DNA of 46,690 nucleotides from Pseudolabrys sp. (lineage in GTDB: Bacteria > Pseudomonadota > Alphaproteobacteria > Rhizobiales > Xanthobacteraceae): positions 1 through 46,690 of the forward strand of contig JALHRB010000028.1 of the NCBI GenBank assembly GCA_022841665.1, read 5' to 3'. A program made the translations under genes and the position numbers. Each line of letters begins with the position of its first letter. The first letter of the stretch is position 1. Below, in pieces: positions 16,071 through 19,832 of this stretch. The notes beneath the pieces were generated by a model, which did no database searches, had not been told where the DNA came from, and saw only the letters and a program-made list of their open reading frames with translations.

Positions 16071-16340
16071 TCACGAATAGTGATAGCGGCACGCGACGGT
16101 CTCCAACGTCTGGCCGTCGCCTTTGCCGGAAACGCGATACACCAGCCGGTGCTCGCCCGTTATGCGTCGCGACCACCAGCCCTTGAGCCCGTATCTGAGC
16201 GGTTCCGGTTTTCCGAGCCCCTTAAACGGAGTGCTCTTGGCGTCGTTGATGAGATCATTGATGGCGCGGAAAACTTTAACGTCGGTGGCCCGCCAGTACT
16301 GGTAGTCGTCCCAGGCCTGGGCGGTCCAAACCAGCTTCAT
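16071..16340 (-). CDS. yoeB: YoeB/Txe-family mRNA interferase toxin
   Basis: 89 residues, the exact size of the family. It begins MKLVWTAQAWDDYQYW and ends ETVACRYHYS; the C-terminal RYHY with its catalytic His-Tyr, and the basic patch GWWSRRITGEHRLVYRV, are the hallmarks of YoeB, a ribosome-dependent ribonuclease of the RelE fold. The gene overlaps the antitoxin gene by four bases (ATGA, 16337-16340), so the two are translationally coupled. It converges with the Crp/Fnr gene, leaving only 11 bases. Confidence 0.94.
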   Translation of the reverse strand: MKLVWTAQAWDDYQYWRATDVKVFRAINDLINDAKSTPFKGLGKPEPLRYGLKGWWSRRITGEHRLVYRVSGKGDGQTLETVACRYHYS

Positions 16341-16606
16341 TTGGCGTCGTGCGGCTCTTCAAGCAAATCGCGCTCGACGACCTTTCCCTTGTCGGCATCT
16401 TCGATCGAGCGCAGGAGCCGCGCCGCATTGGCCGGACTCCGGAGAAGGTGCAGTGTCTCCATCATGCCTTCGTATTCGTCTTCCGACACGAGCACGACAC
16501 TGCGCGCGTTTTGCCGTGTGACGTGCAAGGGCGCACGGCTGTCGCACACTTCGTCCATGTATTTCGCGAGATTGGCGCGTAGCTCGGTATAGGAAATATG
16601 GCTCAT
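16337..16606 (-). CDS. yefM: YefM/Phd-family antitoxin
   Basis: 89 residues: an N-terminal Phd/YefM DNA-binding fold (MSHISYTELRANLAKYMDEV, then APLHVTRQNARSVVLVSEDEY) and an acidic C-terminal tail from about residue 60 that would wrap the toxin. It neutralises the YoeB toxin encoded immediately downstream and autoregulates the operon through the TGTAC palindromes starting 17 bases upstream. The IS1595 element lies just beyond the operator, so the module's upstream context has been cut. Confidence 0.94.
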   Translation of the reverse strand: MSHISYTELRANLAKYMDEVCDSRAPLHVTRQNARSVVLVSEDEYEGMMETLHLLRSPANAARLLRSIEDADKGKVVERDLLEEPHDAK

Positions 16607-16646: not shown

Positions 16647-16669
16647 GAACATTGTCAAGAACTTGATAT

Positions 16670-16679
16670 GACCTGGATC
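16670..16679. repeat. Left copy of the target-site direct repeat
   Basis: GACCTGGATC, directly abutting the left inverted repeat; the same ten bases abut the right inverted repeat at 19070-19079. IS1595 members usually make 8-bp duplications; the extra two bases are explained by the ends (TC/GA) being ambiguous. Confidence 0.85.
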
Positions 16680-16701
16680 GCATTTATATACTTGACAAAA
16701 G
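16680..16701. repeat. Left terminal inverted repeat of the IS1595 element
   Basis: Starts GCATTTATATACTTGACAAA and matches 19048-19069 in reverse complement over all 22 bases. It contains a consensus TTGACA (16692-16697) that may serve as the -35 of the transposase promoter, with a poor -10 (TAGGTT, 16715-16720). Confidence 0.93.
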
Positions 16702-16741
16702 TTAGCCCTTAGAGTAGGTTTCTGGTCATAGGGAGCTGCCC

Positions 16742-17665
16742 ATGACCGCCGTGTTCCAAGATCCCATCTTTCAGGATGAAACCAAGGCCCGCGAAGCTCT
16801 AGAGGCGGCGCGCTGGCCCAACGGGGTCGTTTGCCCTCATTGCGGCGGAGTGGACAAGATCGCCAAGGTGGAAGGCAAGAAACAGTCTCACCGTCCCGGC
16901 CTGTTCTACTGCGGTATGTGCTCCAGCCAATTCACTGTGACGGTTGGGACCGTTTTCGAGCGCTCGAAGGTCCCTCTCACTAAATGGTGGATGGCCGCGC
17001 ACCTGTTCAATCAGGGAAAGAATGGCGTTTCGGCCCACGAAATTCACCGCACGATTGGCGTCACCTACAAGACCGCTTGGTTCATGATGCACCGCTTGCG
17101 TGAAGCAATGGGCAGTGCCGAAGGGTTAGAGCCTATGGGCGGCGCGGGCCACACCGTGCAAGCGGACGAAACCTACTACGGCAATTCGTCTAAGCGCGCG
17201 AAACACTACCGTAAAGGTCACTCCCACAAGTCAGGCGTGATCGCACTAGTCAATCCTAAGACTGGCGAAGCTCGCGCTTTTGCCGTCAACAAGGCAACTA
17301 GCAAAGTCGTGACCGAAATTCTCCGCAAGAACGTTGATCGCAAGACGACGCTTGTTACGGACGAAAGCCCTCTCTATCGGAAAGCTGGCTACAAGAAGCA
17401 TCAGAAGGTTTTTCACACCATCAAGGAATATGTGAACAAAGAAGGCTTCACGACTAACAACGTCGAAAACTTTTTCGGAAATTTCAAGCGCGGCATGAAG
17501 GGCACCTACCGCTTTTGCGGAGAGCAACACTTGCAGCGCTATCTCAACGAGTTCGCGTTCCGATACAACAACAGGTCTGGCCTCGGAATTACCGATGGGG
17601 AACGGACGGCGCTTGCGATGAAGGGCATCGAGGGTAAGCGCCTGACGTACCGGCCGACTAACTGA
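16742..17665 (+). CDS. IS1595-family (ISXO2-like) transposase
   Basis: 307 residues, full length. N-terminal zinc ribbon with CPHC (C31, C34) and CGMC (C57, C60), a small helical region (VSAHEIHRTIGVTYKTAW), then an RNase-H-like catalytic domain: D142 (VQADETYYG), D207 (LVTDESPLY), and TTNNVENFFGNFKRGMKG with N240/E242 and K249, the family's DDN(E)K pattern. GGGAGC precedes the ATG. No frameshift or stop is present, so the element may still be mobile. It moves the surrounding 16680-19069 unit. Confidence 0.95.
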   Translation: MTAVFQDPIFQDETKAREALEAARWPNGVVCPHCGGVDKIAKVEGKKQSHRPGLFYCGMCSSQFTVTVGTVFERSKVPLTKWWMAAHLFNQGKNGVSAHEIHRTIGVTYKTAWFMMHRLREAMGSAEGLEPMGGAGHTVQADETYYGNSSKRAKHYRKGHSHKSGVIALVNPKTGEARAFAVNKATSKVVTEILRKNVDRKTTLVTDESPLYRKAGYKKHQKVFHTIKEYVNKEGFTTNNVENFFGNFKRGMKGTYRFCGEQHLQRYLNEFAFRYNNRSGLGITDGERTALAMKGIEGKRLTYRPTN

Positions 17666-17694
17666 ACAAAAGCCCAGATTTATCAAACATACTG

Positions 17695-17856
17695 TTAGGC
17701 GGTTTTTGGCTTGGCGGAAGCGCGCTTTGGCGCGGGACTCCTAGTCTTTTTCCCTCTAGGATCGCCTAACTTCATTTTCTCGTGCGGCTTGGGCTTCATG
17801 CGCACGAGTGCGCCCATTAGGCGCTTGGTTTGATCAATGTCCGGCAGCTTACCCAT
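17695..17856 (-). CDS. Small basic protein in the IS1595 element
   Basis: 53 residues from the ATG at 17854-17856; the open frame reaches 17916 but this start gives a cleaner protein. It is rich in Lys, Pro and Arg, with a central MKPKPHEKMKLGDPRGKK and a tail of SPAPKRASAKPK type, so likely disordered or nucleic-acid binding. It lies on the strand opposite to the transposase, fills the gap between transposase and HEPN gene, and its start overlaps the start of the HEPN gene head to head. A GGAG lies about 14 bases upstream. It could be spurious; the biased composition and fitted position argue for a gene. Confidence 0.4.
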   Translation of the reverse strand: MGKLPDIDQTKRLMGALVRMKPKPHEKMKLGDPRGKKTRSPAPKRASAKPKTA

Positions 17857-18874
17857 GATAAAGGCTTCATCTCCTAATTTACATTGGCAGGAACTTGTCA
17901 GGTTTGCCATCGACAATTTACCAGTTCCAAAATTGAAATGCGACCAACTGAACGAGGTTGCGGGCTACTTTTTTGGCAATATCAGACGTTTAAATCTGAT
18001 GATTCTTACGCCTAGCTTCGTGGGCGATCTTACAATCCAAATCCAACGTTGCTTCGACTACGCTGAGTTCGCAACCACGAAAACATTACAGACAGGAACG
18101 TTCGATTTTCAGGATCATCCACAGCGGCAAAAGATCGGTGAGTTAGCACAACACATTTTCCACCATGACCATCGTGAAAAGCTGCAAGCCGTTGGTTCGC
18201 CTGAGTGGGATGCTTTTGTTCTCAAAAGTATTGAATATGGAACGCAGCCCGTCCAAATGCTGGCGGACTCCCCCTCACGTCCTGGGCTGGAAGCTATCTT
18301 ATCATCGTGTCTAACCGGAACATGGACAGCATTTGAAACGATGGCGGCTGACTTATGGGAGAGCGCGATCAACGTCCACCCTAGCACGCTAGCAGAACTC
18401 AAAGGCGCAAAGACACGAATTACCAAAGGCTCACCATCAAATGACATCGACGAAGACCTCGACGAGGACACCAAGACGGCACAATCGATTCCGCTTAGCG
18501 AAGTAACTCGACATCAATACAAAATTGAAAACCTGATGGGGACGGTGCTTAAGACCCGCCGCCGTTTTGATAGCTTGGGTGGAATTCGAGAAGCATATTC
18601 CAGAGCATTCTCAAAAAAGTCGGACGCTATTGACGGCGCTCTACGCGACCCAATCCTCTATCAGTTGTCAGCCATTCGAAATTTAATCGTTCACCGCGCC
18701 GGGAAGGTTGATACAGCTTACAAAAGTAAATCTGGAAATTTCGAGATTCCCATTGCGGTTATAAACGATCATATCGCCCCAGACGGGATTGCGGTTGCTG
18801 AGATCATAACGCGCACCGTCAAATGCGCGATGAACCTCTCCAGAGCCGTTGACATCTGGATCGAGGAAAACTGA
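17837..18874 (+). CDS. HEPN-motif passenger protein of the IS1595 element
   Basis: 345 residues (339 if ATG 17855 is used). No family assigned. The C-terminal part has LYQLSAIRNLIVHRAGKVD with R281-N-L-I-V-H286, the R-x4-H signature of HEPN nucleases and HEPN-like folds. The N-terminal half is helical and carries TWTAFETMAADLWE, which recalls HEPN/RiboL-PSP-type helices; the middle has an acidic linker (NDIDEDLDEDTK). HEPN proteins are often RNases in toxin-antitoxin, abortive infection or CRISPR systems, but many are inactive. The gene is AT-richer than host genes and lies between transposase and right inverted repeat, so it travels with the element. Neither start has a good ribosome binding site. 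Confidence 0.72.
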   Translation: MSGSLPMIKASSPNLHWQELVRFAIDNLPVPKLKCDQLNEVAGYFFGNIRRLNLMILTPSFVGDLTIQIQRCFDYAEFATTKTLQTGTFDFQDHPQRQKIGELAQHIFHHDHREKLQAVGSPEWDAFVLKSIEYGTQPVQMLADSPSRPGLEAILSSCLTGTWTAFETMAADLWESAINVHPSTLAELKGAKTRITKGSPSNDIDEDLDEDTKTAQSIPLSEVTRHQYKIENLMGTVLKTRRRFDSLGGIREAYSRAFSKKSDAIDGALRDPILYQLSAIRNLIVHRAGKVDTAYKSKSGNFEIPIAVINDHIAPDGIAVAEIITRTVKCAMNLSRAVDIWIEEN

Positions 18875-19047
18875 TCTACTTCCACCACCAATAACATCGT
18901 CTTGCATTTTCGTTTCACCACGACGGCGGTGAAACGCATTTCCCCTCTCGGGTTCGAGAACCTAGGCCATCCCGTCATTCCATGACCTAGATCGCATCGT
19001 TCGTACCTGACGCTGCCCTGTCTGGGGCATTTAGGACTTATGTCCGT
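18875..19047. other. Non-coding right end of the IS1595 element
   Basis: Holds a CGTTTCACC/GGTGAAACG hairpin (18911-18919, 18928-18936) soon after the HEPN stop, possibly its terminator though no T tract follows; a GGTTCGAGAACC palindrome (18951-18962); and a 16-base near-copy of the left junction (18982-18997, 15 of 16 identical to 16668-16683). Confidence 0.6.
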
Positions 19048-19069
19048 CTTTTGTCAAGTATATAAATGC
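19048..19069. repeat. Right terminal inverted repeat of the IS1595 element
   Basis: CTTTTGTCAAGTATATAAAT plus GC, the exact reverse complement of 16680-16701. Confidence 0.93.
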
Positions 19070-19079
19070 GACCTGGATC
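19070..19079. repeat. Right copy of the target-site direct repeat
   Basis: GACCTGGATC, identical to 16670-16679. Joining the flanks restores ATGACCTGGATCAT, a TGAC-N4-ATCA dyad of Crp/Fnr-like form. Confidence 0.85.
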
Positions 19080-19142: not shown

Positions 19143-19832
19143 ATGAAGACCTTTCCCTGGAAGACCGCGATTGCCGGCACCGCGCTTCTCGCCGGCACGA
19201 TCTATGTGTTCGCCGCCCAGCTCACGCCCGGCGCGCCCGGCATGCATGGCGGCATGGGCATGCACGGCCAGATGCCGCAAGGCGATATGGCGAAGATGCA
19301 CCAGCAGATGATGCAAGGCGGCGGCATGCAGGGCGGCATGGGCCAAGGCGGCATGCATGGCGGGCACGGCATGATGCAGCAGCGCTCCGGCGTCCCGGCC
19401 ATGCCGGGGCAGGACGCCTTCGGCACCATCCAGGAAATCATGCAGATGCTGGAAGCCGATCCGGCTACCGACTGGGCCAAGGTCGATATCGCCGCGCTGC
19501 GCGAGCACCTGATCGACATGAACGAGGTTACGCTGCGCGCCGCCGCCGCCCAGCGCGTCACCGGCGACGGCATCGAGATCGCGGTCACCGGCGAGAGCCG
19601 CACGCTCGCCGCCATCAAGCGCATGGTGCCGGCGCACATAAAGGAACTGGCGCAGAACGGCTGGAAGGCCTCCACCGAAGACCTGCCGAACGGCGTGAAG
19701 GTCACCGTCAGCGCCACCGAGGCGCAGCCGCTCGCCAAACTCAAGGGCCTCGGCTTCATGGGCCTGATGGTGCAGGGCGGCCACCACCAGCCGCATCATC
19801 TGATGATGGCCAAAGGCGAGCCGATGCACTGA
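19143..19832 (+). CDS. Exported Met/His/Gly-rich protein, probable copper binder
   Basis: 229 residues. Residues 1-25 are a signal peptide or anchor (MKTFPWKTAIAG then an Ala/Leu core). Residues 30-85 are a low-complexity tract of M, H, G and Q (GMHGGMGMHGQMPQGDM and so on), a composition typical of periplasmic Cu(I)-binding regions. From about residue 88 a compact domain follows (AFGTIQEIMQMLEADPATDW ... GIEIAVTG), and the end is again His/Met-rich (GGHHQPHHLMM). GAAAGAG lies before the ATG. It is followed on the same strand by the SHOCT protein gene, itself rich in MGGWGYGYGYG. The metal role is inferred from composition only. The IS element ends 73 bases upstream and may have altered its promoter. 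Confidence 0.82.
   Translation: MKTFPWKTAIAGTALLAGTIYVFAAQLTPGAPGMHGGMGMHGQMPQGDMAKMHQQMMQGGGMQGGMGQGGMHGGHGMMQQRSGVPAMPGQDAFGTIQEIMQMLEADPATDWAKVDIAALREHLIDMNEVTLRAAAAQRVTGDGIEIAVTGESRTLAAIKRMVPAHIKELAQNGWKASTEDLPNGVKVTVSATEAQPLAKLKGLGFMGLMVQGGHHQPHHLMMAKGEPMH

Follow-up and report, generated by a model that had tools for sequence, protein, structure and literature searches.

The window analysed here is a stretch of 46,690 nucleotides from a Pseudolabrys sp. draft genome (contig JALHRB010000028.1). Positions 16679–19070 of the window hold a 2,392-bp element of the IS1595 family, a transporter insertion sequence (IS) that is apparently intact. As listed in Table 1, it carries a transposase, a small gene encoding a basic protein and a passenger gene, for which an HEPN-type ribonuclease (RNase) is the best prediction. 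A preliminary description of this DNA had proposed a 2.39-kb unit with a 345-residue passenger; the ends do enclose the passenger, and its open reading frame (ORF) is uninterrupted and contains the RNLIVH motif. The small gene was overlooked in that description. It is convergent to the transposase gene and divergent from the passenger gene, and because it begins at the passenger's internal ATG at 17855, this ATG is possibly the better passenger start.

Table 1. Features of the IS1595-family element and its target site (positions in the window).
Feature	Positions	Strand	Remarks
Target-site duplication, left copy, ACCTGGAT	16671–16678	.	Same sequence as 19071–19078
Left terminal inverted repeat, 23 bp	16679–16701	+	Similar to the tips of related elements
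IS1595-family transposase, 307 aa	16742–17665	+	Uninterrupted; catalytic residues and zinc-ribbon cysteines conserved
Small accessory gene, family A, 53 aa	17695–17856	−	Basic; KPKPH motif; leave-one-out E 0.0018
Passenger ORF, 345 aa (339 aa from ATG 17855)	17837–18874	+	Predicted HEPN-type RNase
RNLIVH motif codons (residues 281–286)	18677–18694	+	R and H invariant in homologues
Right terminal inverted repeat, 23 bp	19048–19070	−	Perfect match to the left repeat
Target-site duplication, right copy, ACCTGGAT	19071–19078	.	

The inverted repeats are perfect, as had been stated, and are one base longer than the 22 bp given in the preliminary description. The 10-bp direct repeat reported there, GACCTGGATC, is also real; it consists of the 8-bp sequence ACCTGGAT and one matching base on either side. 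The commonest tip form among related elements is GGCGATTATATACTTGAC. Comparison with these tips moved the boundary of the element one base outwards, and the target duplication is therefore the 8-bp ACCTGGAT; a 10-bp duplication was rejected because 8 bp agrees with the tips of the relatives. Eight base pairs is also the value for the IS1595 family. All eight duplicated bases matched in 37 of 42 elements delimited by our script, which selected for at least seven. Even when up to 3 mismatches were allowed, the draft genome (95% complete, in 125 contigs) contained no further copy of the 23-bp end; the pair therefore does not belong to a repeat that is common there. Inside the element, ATGACCTAGATCGCAT (18982–18997) equals 15 of the 16 bases of the left junction (16668–16683), i.e. 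the target and the first bases of the end. This resemblance may be due to chance or be the trace of an earlier insertion event.

The right-flank DNA was searched in 43 genomes of the same genus, the window's own included, and 40 of them gave some match, in many cases a short one. The flanks were joined without the element in all five same-genus loci whose junction was read (L103, L104, L105, L094 and L106). These empty sites show that the insertion is real. According to the preliminary description, an HEPN gene at this locus without the transposase or the inverted repeats would have spoken against its proposal; it is the whole element that the relatives read lack. The other counter-case named there, homologous elements with ends that leave the passenger out, was not encountered either. 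The empty-site junctions centre on a palindrome such as ATATGATCTCGATCATAT, and the window target with the element removed reads ATATG-ACCTGGAT-CATATG. Judging by this palindromic sequence, the insertion interrupted an operator-like site that lies upstream of a gene for a Met-rich protein at 19143. When the flanks of 56 delimited insertion sites were joined, the bases about the duplication showed a modest palindromic preference, strongest at half-position 5 (z 4.1), and the window site was among the most palindromic (10/15).

The transposase ORF is open over its whole length, and the family assignment made earlier was borne out by matches above cut-off to DDE_Tnp_IS1595 (PF12762, E 8e-30) and Zn_ribbon_IS1595 (PF12760, E 2.4e-11). 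The DDE residues are all present, namely D142 (kept in 46/46 of the related transposases compared below), D207 (45/46) and E242 (45/46), as are the zinc-ribbon cysteines C31, C34, C57 and C60. The window transposase has a long end branch in the tree. Its gene has a G+C content of 55%, compared with 48% for the passenger gene and 65% for the window.

The passenger gene is single-copy in the draft genome, and a single-sequence search of 296 genomes of the family returned only the passenger itself. Single-sequence searches of genome contigs, plasmids and viral contigs, and a profile search of viral contigs, gave nothing useful. In the class, weak matches were obtained in 4 of 385 genomes including its own; a profile built from two weak matches gave matches in 7 of 385, its own again included, and a larger profile reached five named loci (Seohaeicola, Roseicyclus, Gallionellaceae bacterium, Rhizobiaceae bacterium and Rhodoferax). 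When the window passenger was aligned with eight remote homologues, which are about 20% identical to it, W163, E167, R281, L283, V285 and H286 were invariant over the nine rows. The residue following the motif R was N or H, thus polar, in every row; in those parts of PMC3710099 that were available, a polar residue after R in Rx4H is typical of HEPN proteins. HEPN_RiboL-PSP was matched by 3 of 9 family members (best E 1.3e-4). The structure model of the window passenger was poor in much of its N-terminal half, with a mean predicted local distance difference test score (pLDDT) of 58.6, and the model of the C-terminal part led by relative L120 reached a pLDDT of 88.2 and a predicted template modelling score of 0.79. 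Both models were almost all-helical and placed the motif where a helix ends. Comparison of the family profile with the HEPN protein of L065 gave nothing useful. Because R281 and H286 are invariant in eight remote homologues, an HEPN-type RNase is the best prediction for this protein, and the HEPN-motif passenger of the preliminary description is upheld as a prediction.

No IS1595 transposase was found in the fetched DNA of any of 11 passenger homologue loci. The passenger family therefore exists as standalone genes, and the copy in the element was probably captured. The standalone members (L117–L121, L101, L102 and L113–L116) are about 310–430 aa long and carry R[NH]xxxH, with G, D and Y behind it at constant distances in most cases; those scanned had no Pfam match above cut-off. 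We take their hosts to include both Alpha- and Betaproteobacteria.

Two samples of related elements were compared. The first consisted of 56 places: 48 in genomes of the class, 7 plasmid loci picked from 210 matching plasmid records, and the window. The transposase group was found in 37 of the 385 sampled class genomes. Forty-six elements of 1,833–4,306 bp, the window included, were delimited. Left out were L041, L048, L059, L060, L070, L082 and L085, with at most 1.6 kb left downstream; L038 and L045, with room enough and no acceptable end pair; and L035, whose chosen repeat was unlike that of the family. The last three could be counterexamples. L046, L057, L064, L076 and L084 did not pass the strict script and were included on the evidence of their ends. 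In L032 the transposase is broken into two parts, and its branch in the tree is very long. The second sample, judged by a similar but not identical rule, comprised 19 new places in 378 genomes of the phylum and yielded 17 elements of 2.1–4.1 kb. L137 and L152 were not delimited, and L153 was accepted by its ends with 3/8 duplicated bases. L154, accepted with a poor repeat, is counted in the second-sample and combined figures, and 16 of the 17 elements are credible.

Extra DNA was present in all 46 elements of the first sample, and 45 of them had an ORF of at least 150 aa besides the transposase; L037 had no cargo ORF of 100 aa. Every element of the second sample (17/17) had an ORF of at least 100 aa. 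Cargo ORFs were called mechanically. Even transposases that were 81–85% identical (L067, L068, L069 and L074; L043 and L043b) were accompanied by cargo without blastp similarity at E 0.01: an RNKYVH protein in L067, a RelA/SpoT protein in L068, and others in L069 and L074. DNA similarity stopped 0 to about 170 bp beyond the transposase stop codon (about 57 bp in the L067 group) and then continued only as short patches. The idea that HEPN cargo marks a single branch of the transposase tree was rejected, since the label needed 17 changes on the tree against a mean of 15.1 when shuffled. By these comparisons, elements of the group hardly ever lack cargo and often swap it, but they retain the transposase and, in most cases, a small gene. 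At L043 (G374:C85) two divergent elements stand side by side, with transposases 85% identical and a different cargo in each.

The RNxxxH motif was found in 20 of 61 cargo ORFs of 150–600 aa (20 of the 46 elements), compared with 8 of 205 flanking ORFs (Fisher p 7.7e-9). Shuffled cargo contained it 1.06 times on average, with a maximum of 5 in 1000 shuffles, and the reversed pattern occurred in 0/61 cargo and 5/205 flanking ORFs. The loose R-x4-H pattern was common everywhere (41/61 cargo and 114/205 flanking ORFs), so R-x4-H alone means little. With both samples combined, RNxxxH was present in 23/87 cargo ORFs against 11/271 ORFs outside (p 1.9e-8), an excess carried by the first sample. The preliminary description had regarded an R-x4-H HEPN passenger as unusual. 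This does not hold for the group, with RNxxxH in 20 of the 46 first-sample elements, although such elements are rarer in the second sample (3/17).

Pfam domains above cut-off were used to name the cargo. In the first sample they were HEPN_MAE_28990 with GmrSD_N (L065), HEPN (L072), GmrSD_N with HNH (L051), a methylase with Mrr (L058), RelA_SpoT (L068), PIN types (L054 and L063) and SocA_Panacea (L081). In the second they included a PIN type (L153), NYN (L144) and methylases (L146 and L155); the names obtained for the 10 second-sample ORFs scanned were PIN, NYN, two DNA methylases, DUF3800, Beta protein and a trypsin-like domain. Counting bare RNxxxH motifs, these domains and the PIN/VapC annotations of L033 and L036, cargo resembling nuclease, toxin or restriction genes was carried by 28 of the 46 elements; two further ones had DUF1828 or DUF3800. 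Much of the cargo thus looks like conflict genes (RNxxxH, PIN, restriction, methylase and RelA/SpoT) at the level of motif or domain, and HEPN is, as far as sequence tells, a frequent cargo and not a fixed one.

Short DNA patches common to relatives between transposase and cargo led to two families of small genes. Family A (RDxxLxRLLxTPPKPH) was present in 24 of the 46 elements, invariably in the opposite orientation to the transposase gene; a further 18 had family B (RFIExARELGxDE), which shared the transposase strand in 17 of them. One or the other was thus found in 42 elements, whatever the cargo, both in none and neither in 4; one assignment per family (L040 and L062) depends on an E of about 0.01. 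The flanks of the first-sample loci gave a single small-gene match, which belonged to a neighbouring element. In leave-one-out searches with 17 family A seeds, 13 were recovered at 1e-8 or better, the window at 0.0018, and L044 failed (2.4). A search of 115 whole genomes for family A gave 15 matches in 10 of them, 12 with an IS1595 transposase in the fetched flank, in one case only as an edge fragment. The families were discovered on the first sample. In the second, a small gene was found in 11 of the 16 credible elements (4 A and 7 B), with one flank match (B, beside L149); one segment of L154 matched both models. No convincing Pfam match was obtained for the 10 A and 8 B proteins scanned. 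We met no description of either family in the literature searched, where no search was aimed at them. From their distribution the small genes appear to belong to the elements and not to one cargo type. The small gene as an HEPN-specific antitoxin was rejected, as it accompanies unrelated cargo too.

Two other observations concern the surroundings. Directly left of the element lie two small adjoining minus-strand genes, 16071–16340 and 16337–16606, presumably of the RelE/YoeB toxin type and the Phd/YefM antitoxin type, respectively. A perfect sigma-70-like promoter accompanies them at 16658–16629, and the pair was not in the five same-genus junctions read. The genome of the window also contains a second IS1595 element, L078 (G000:C52), of 2,541 bp with a family B small gene. 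Its cargo, an RNKTMH protein encoded on the opposite strand, has no blastp similarity to the window passenger at E 0.01.

We lean slightly towards the view that the element is a compact, cargo-swapping IS1595 transporter whose predicted HEPN RNase serves host defence. Between its ends lie three genes, which encode the DDE transposase, the small and basic accessory protein and a single cargo protein. The transposase would act on the 23-bp ends and has left the 8-bp duplication in a palindromic, operator-like site. The cargo would be a metal-independent endoribonuclease of the HEPN type which, triggered by stress or phage, might cleave RNA and so harm or halt the infected cell. By protecting kin, the RNase would let the element gain through host defence, and we put the chances of such a defence role at about even. 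The IS1595 group as a whole may often carry defence or toxin genes as a vehicle. A tentative, bolder version, which we hold possible though not probable, makes the group a dedicated minimal vehicle through which defence genes are exchanged. A core made up of a transposase and an A or B protein would move one slot, refilled repeatedly with HEPN, PIN and restriction-type genes of unrelated origin, and the small protein, family A being found almost only beside these transposases, would then help to capture or tolerate the cargo.

Several findings weigh against a cargo-swapping carrier of HEPN genes. The curated HEPN cut-off was reached by only 2 of the 20 elements with RNxxxH (L065 and L072), and the HEPN_RiboL-PSP matches of the passenger's relatives fall below the curated cut-off of that family. 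The window passenger itself had no Pfam or NCBIfam match, and its PADLOC match was at chance level only. With E 0.001 as the limit, Foldseek matched neither model to a solved structure, and no HEPN protein turned up when PDB sequences were searched with profiles. Within the second sample alone RNxxxH was not significantly enriched (3/26 cargo ORFs against 3/66 outside, p 0.35). Cargo or extra DNA without a recognised domain was found in 16 of the 46 elements, of which L037, L044, L073 and L076 lay outside the scan. Exchange is not universal: related cargo was kept in L036 and L058 and in L066, L072, L075 and L078, and the GmrSD_N domain is common to L051 and L065. The element is present once in its genome and so shows no sign of recent activity. 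Finally, the window transposase deviates at five nearly invariant positions (residues 92, 94, 100, 140 and 172), where 44 or 45 of the 46 related transposases agree, and these residues may have altered its activity.

The main rival is addiction, in which the HEPN protein would be a toxin that stabilises the element and the small basic protein, or an RNA, would be the antitoxin. The small gene does adjoin the passenger in divergent orientation, PIN or Panacea (SocA-like antitoxin) genes occur in some relatives, and Tn3-family transposons are known to have toxin-antitoxin pairs among their passengers, according to the accessible part of PMC7157771. However, family A is found with HEPN cargo and also with cargo of quite other kinds, and the 20 HEPN elements comprise 12 with A, 7 with B and 1 with neither, whereas an antitoxin is expected to match its toxin. 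No antitoxin dedicated to the passenger was recognised, and the small gene does not track HEPN cargo, which speaks mildly against a simple pair of toxin and antitoxin; we consider addiction rather unlikely. Alternatively, the element may simply have captured adjacent DNA, and the HEPN gene would have no role for it. The great diversity of the cargo, in 16 of the 46 elements without a recognised domain, would fit such neutral hitch-hiking, as would the standalone relatives of the passenger with no IS1595 transposase nearby and the lack of RNxxxH enrichment in the second sample. But RNxxxH is enriched relative to flanking ORFs in the first sample and when both are combined, 45 of the 46 elements retain an ORF of at least 150 aa, and the conserved small genes point to an organised element; we regard hitch-hiking as distinctly improbable. 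Least likely of all, and highly doubtful in our view, is a coincidental RNLIVH in a helical protein of another fold: the missing fold match and the lack of a Pfam match above cut-off would suit it, but four motif positions (R, L, V and H) and the upstream W and E stay invariant at about 20% identity, the residue after R is polar as is typical of HEPN in the available parts of PMC3710099, and a third of the family members match an HEPN family.

The element shares with the known IS1595 transporter ISs (tIS) the transposase, the terminal inverted repeats, the 8-bp duplication and a passenger between the ends. The source cited for this class is reportedly Siguier, Gagnevin and Chandler (2009). IS1595 elements with passengers are described as transporter ISs in the accessible parts of PMC3129680 and PMC8496243, and tISCpe8 carries lincomycin resistance, according to a title cited in PMC5704250. 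Resistance is the cargo there, and an HEPN-type gene is the cargo here. Tn7-like transposons have several transposition genes and larger cargo, in contrast to the single transposase, single small gene and cargo of about 1 kb in the present element. They resemble it in a cargo rich in defence and toxin genes, among which HEPN (37) and RelA-SpoT (70) are tabulated in the portion of PMC8649781 available. Tn3-family transposons have repeatedly acquired RNase toxin passengers (PIN types and one HEPN-MNT), as far as the available text of PMC7157771 goes. Those passengers are paired toxin-antitoxin modules, whereas no cargo-specific antitoxin was recognised here, and the transposase family differs. 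The passenger is like the HEPN RNases of the RiboL-PSP-HEPN and MAE_28990 types in its Rx4H, its polar residue after R and the position of the motif at a helix end (PMC3710099, accessible parts), but, unlike them, it matches no curated family above cut-off. The same parts of PMC3710099 mention integron-borne HEPN genes and no insertion sequence as carrier. No report joining IS1595 with HEPN or defence cargo was met in the accessible text of the open-licence literature searched; papers naming both HEPN and IS1595 did so in unconnected contexts. Passenger-carrying IS1595 elements are thus already known, and HEPN or defence cargo on IS1595 is apparently new.

If the proposed role is true, each member of the group would mark a cargo gene whose limits are set exactly by the terminal repeats. 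This would provide a simple route to listing candidate defence and toxin genes, many of which have no family match today. Very small insertion sequences would join the known carriers of bacterial immunity, and the role of the two conserved small proteins and the route by which cargo is swapped would become the questions posed by this family.

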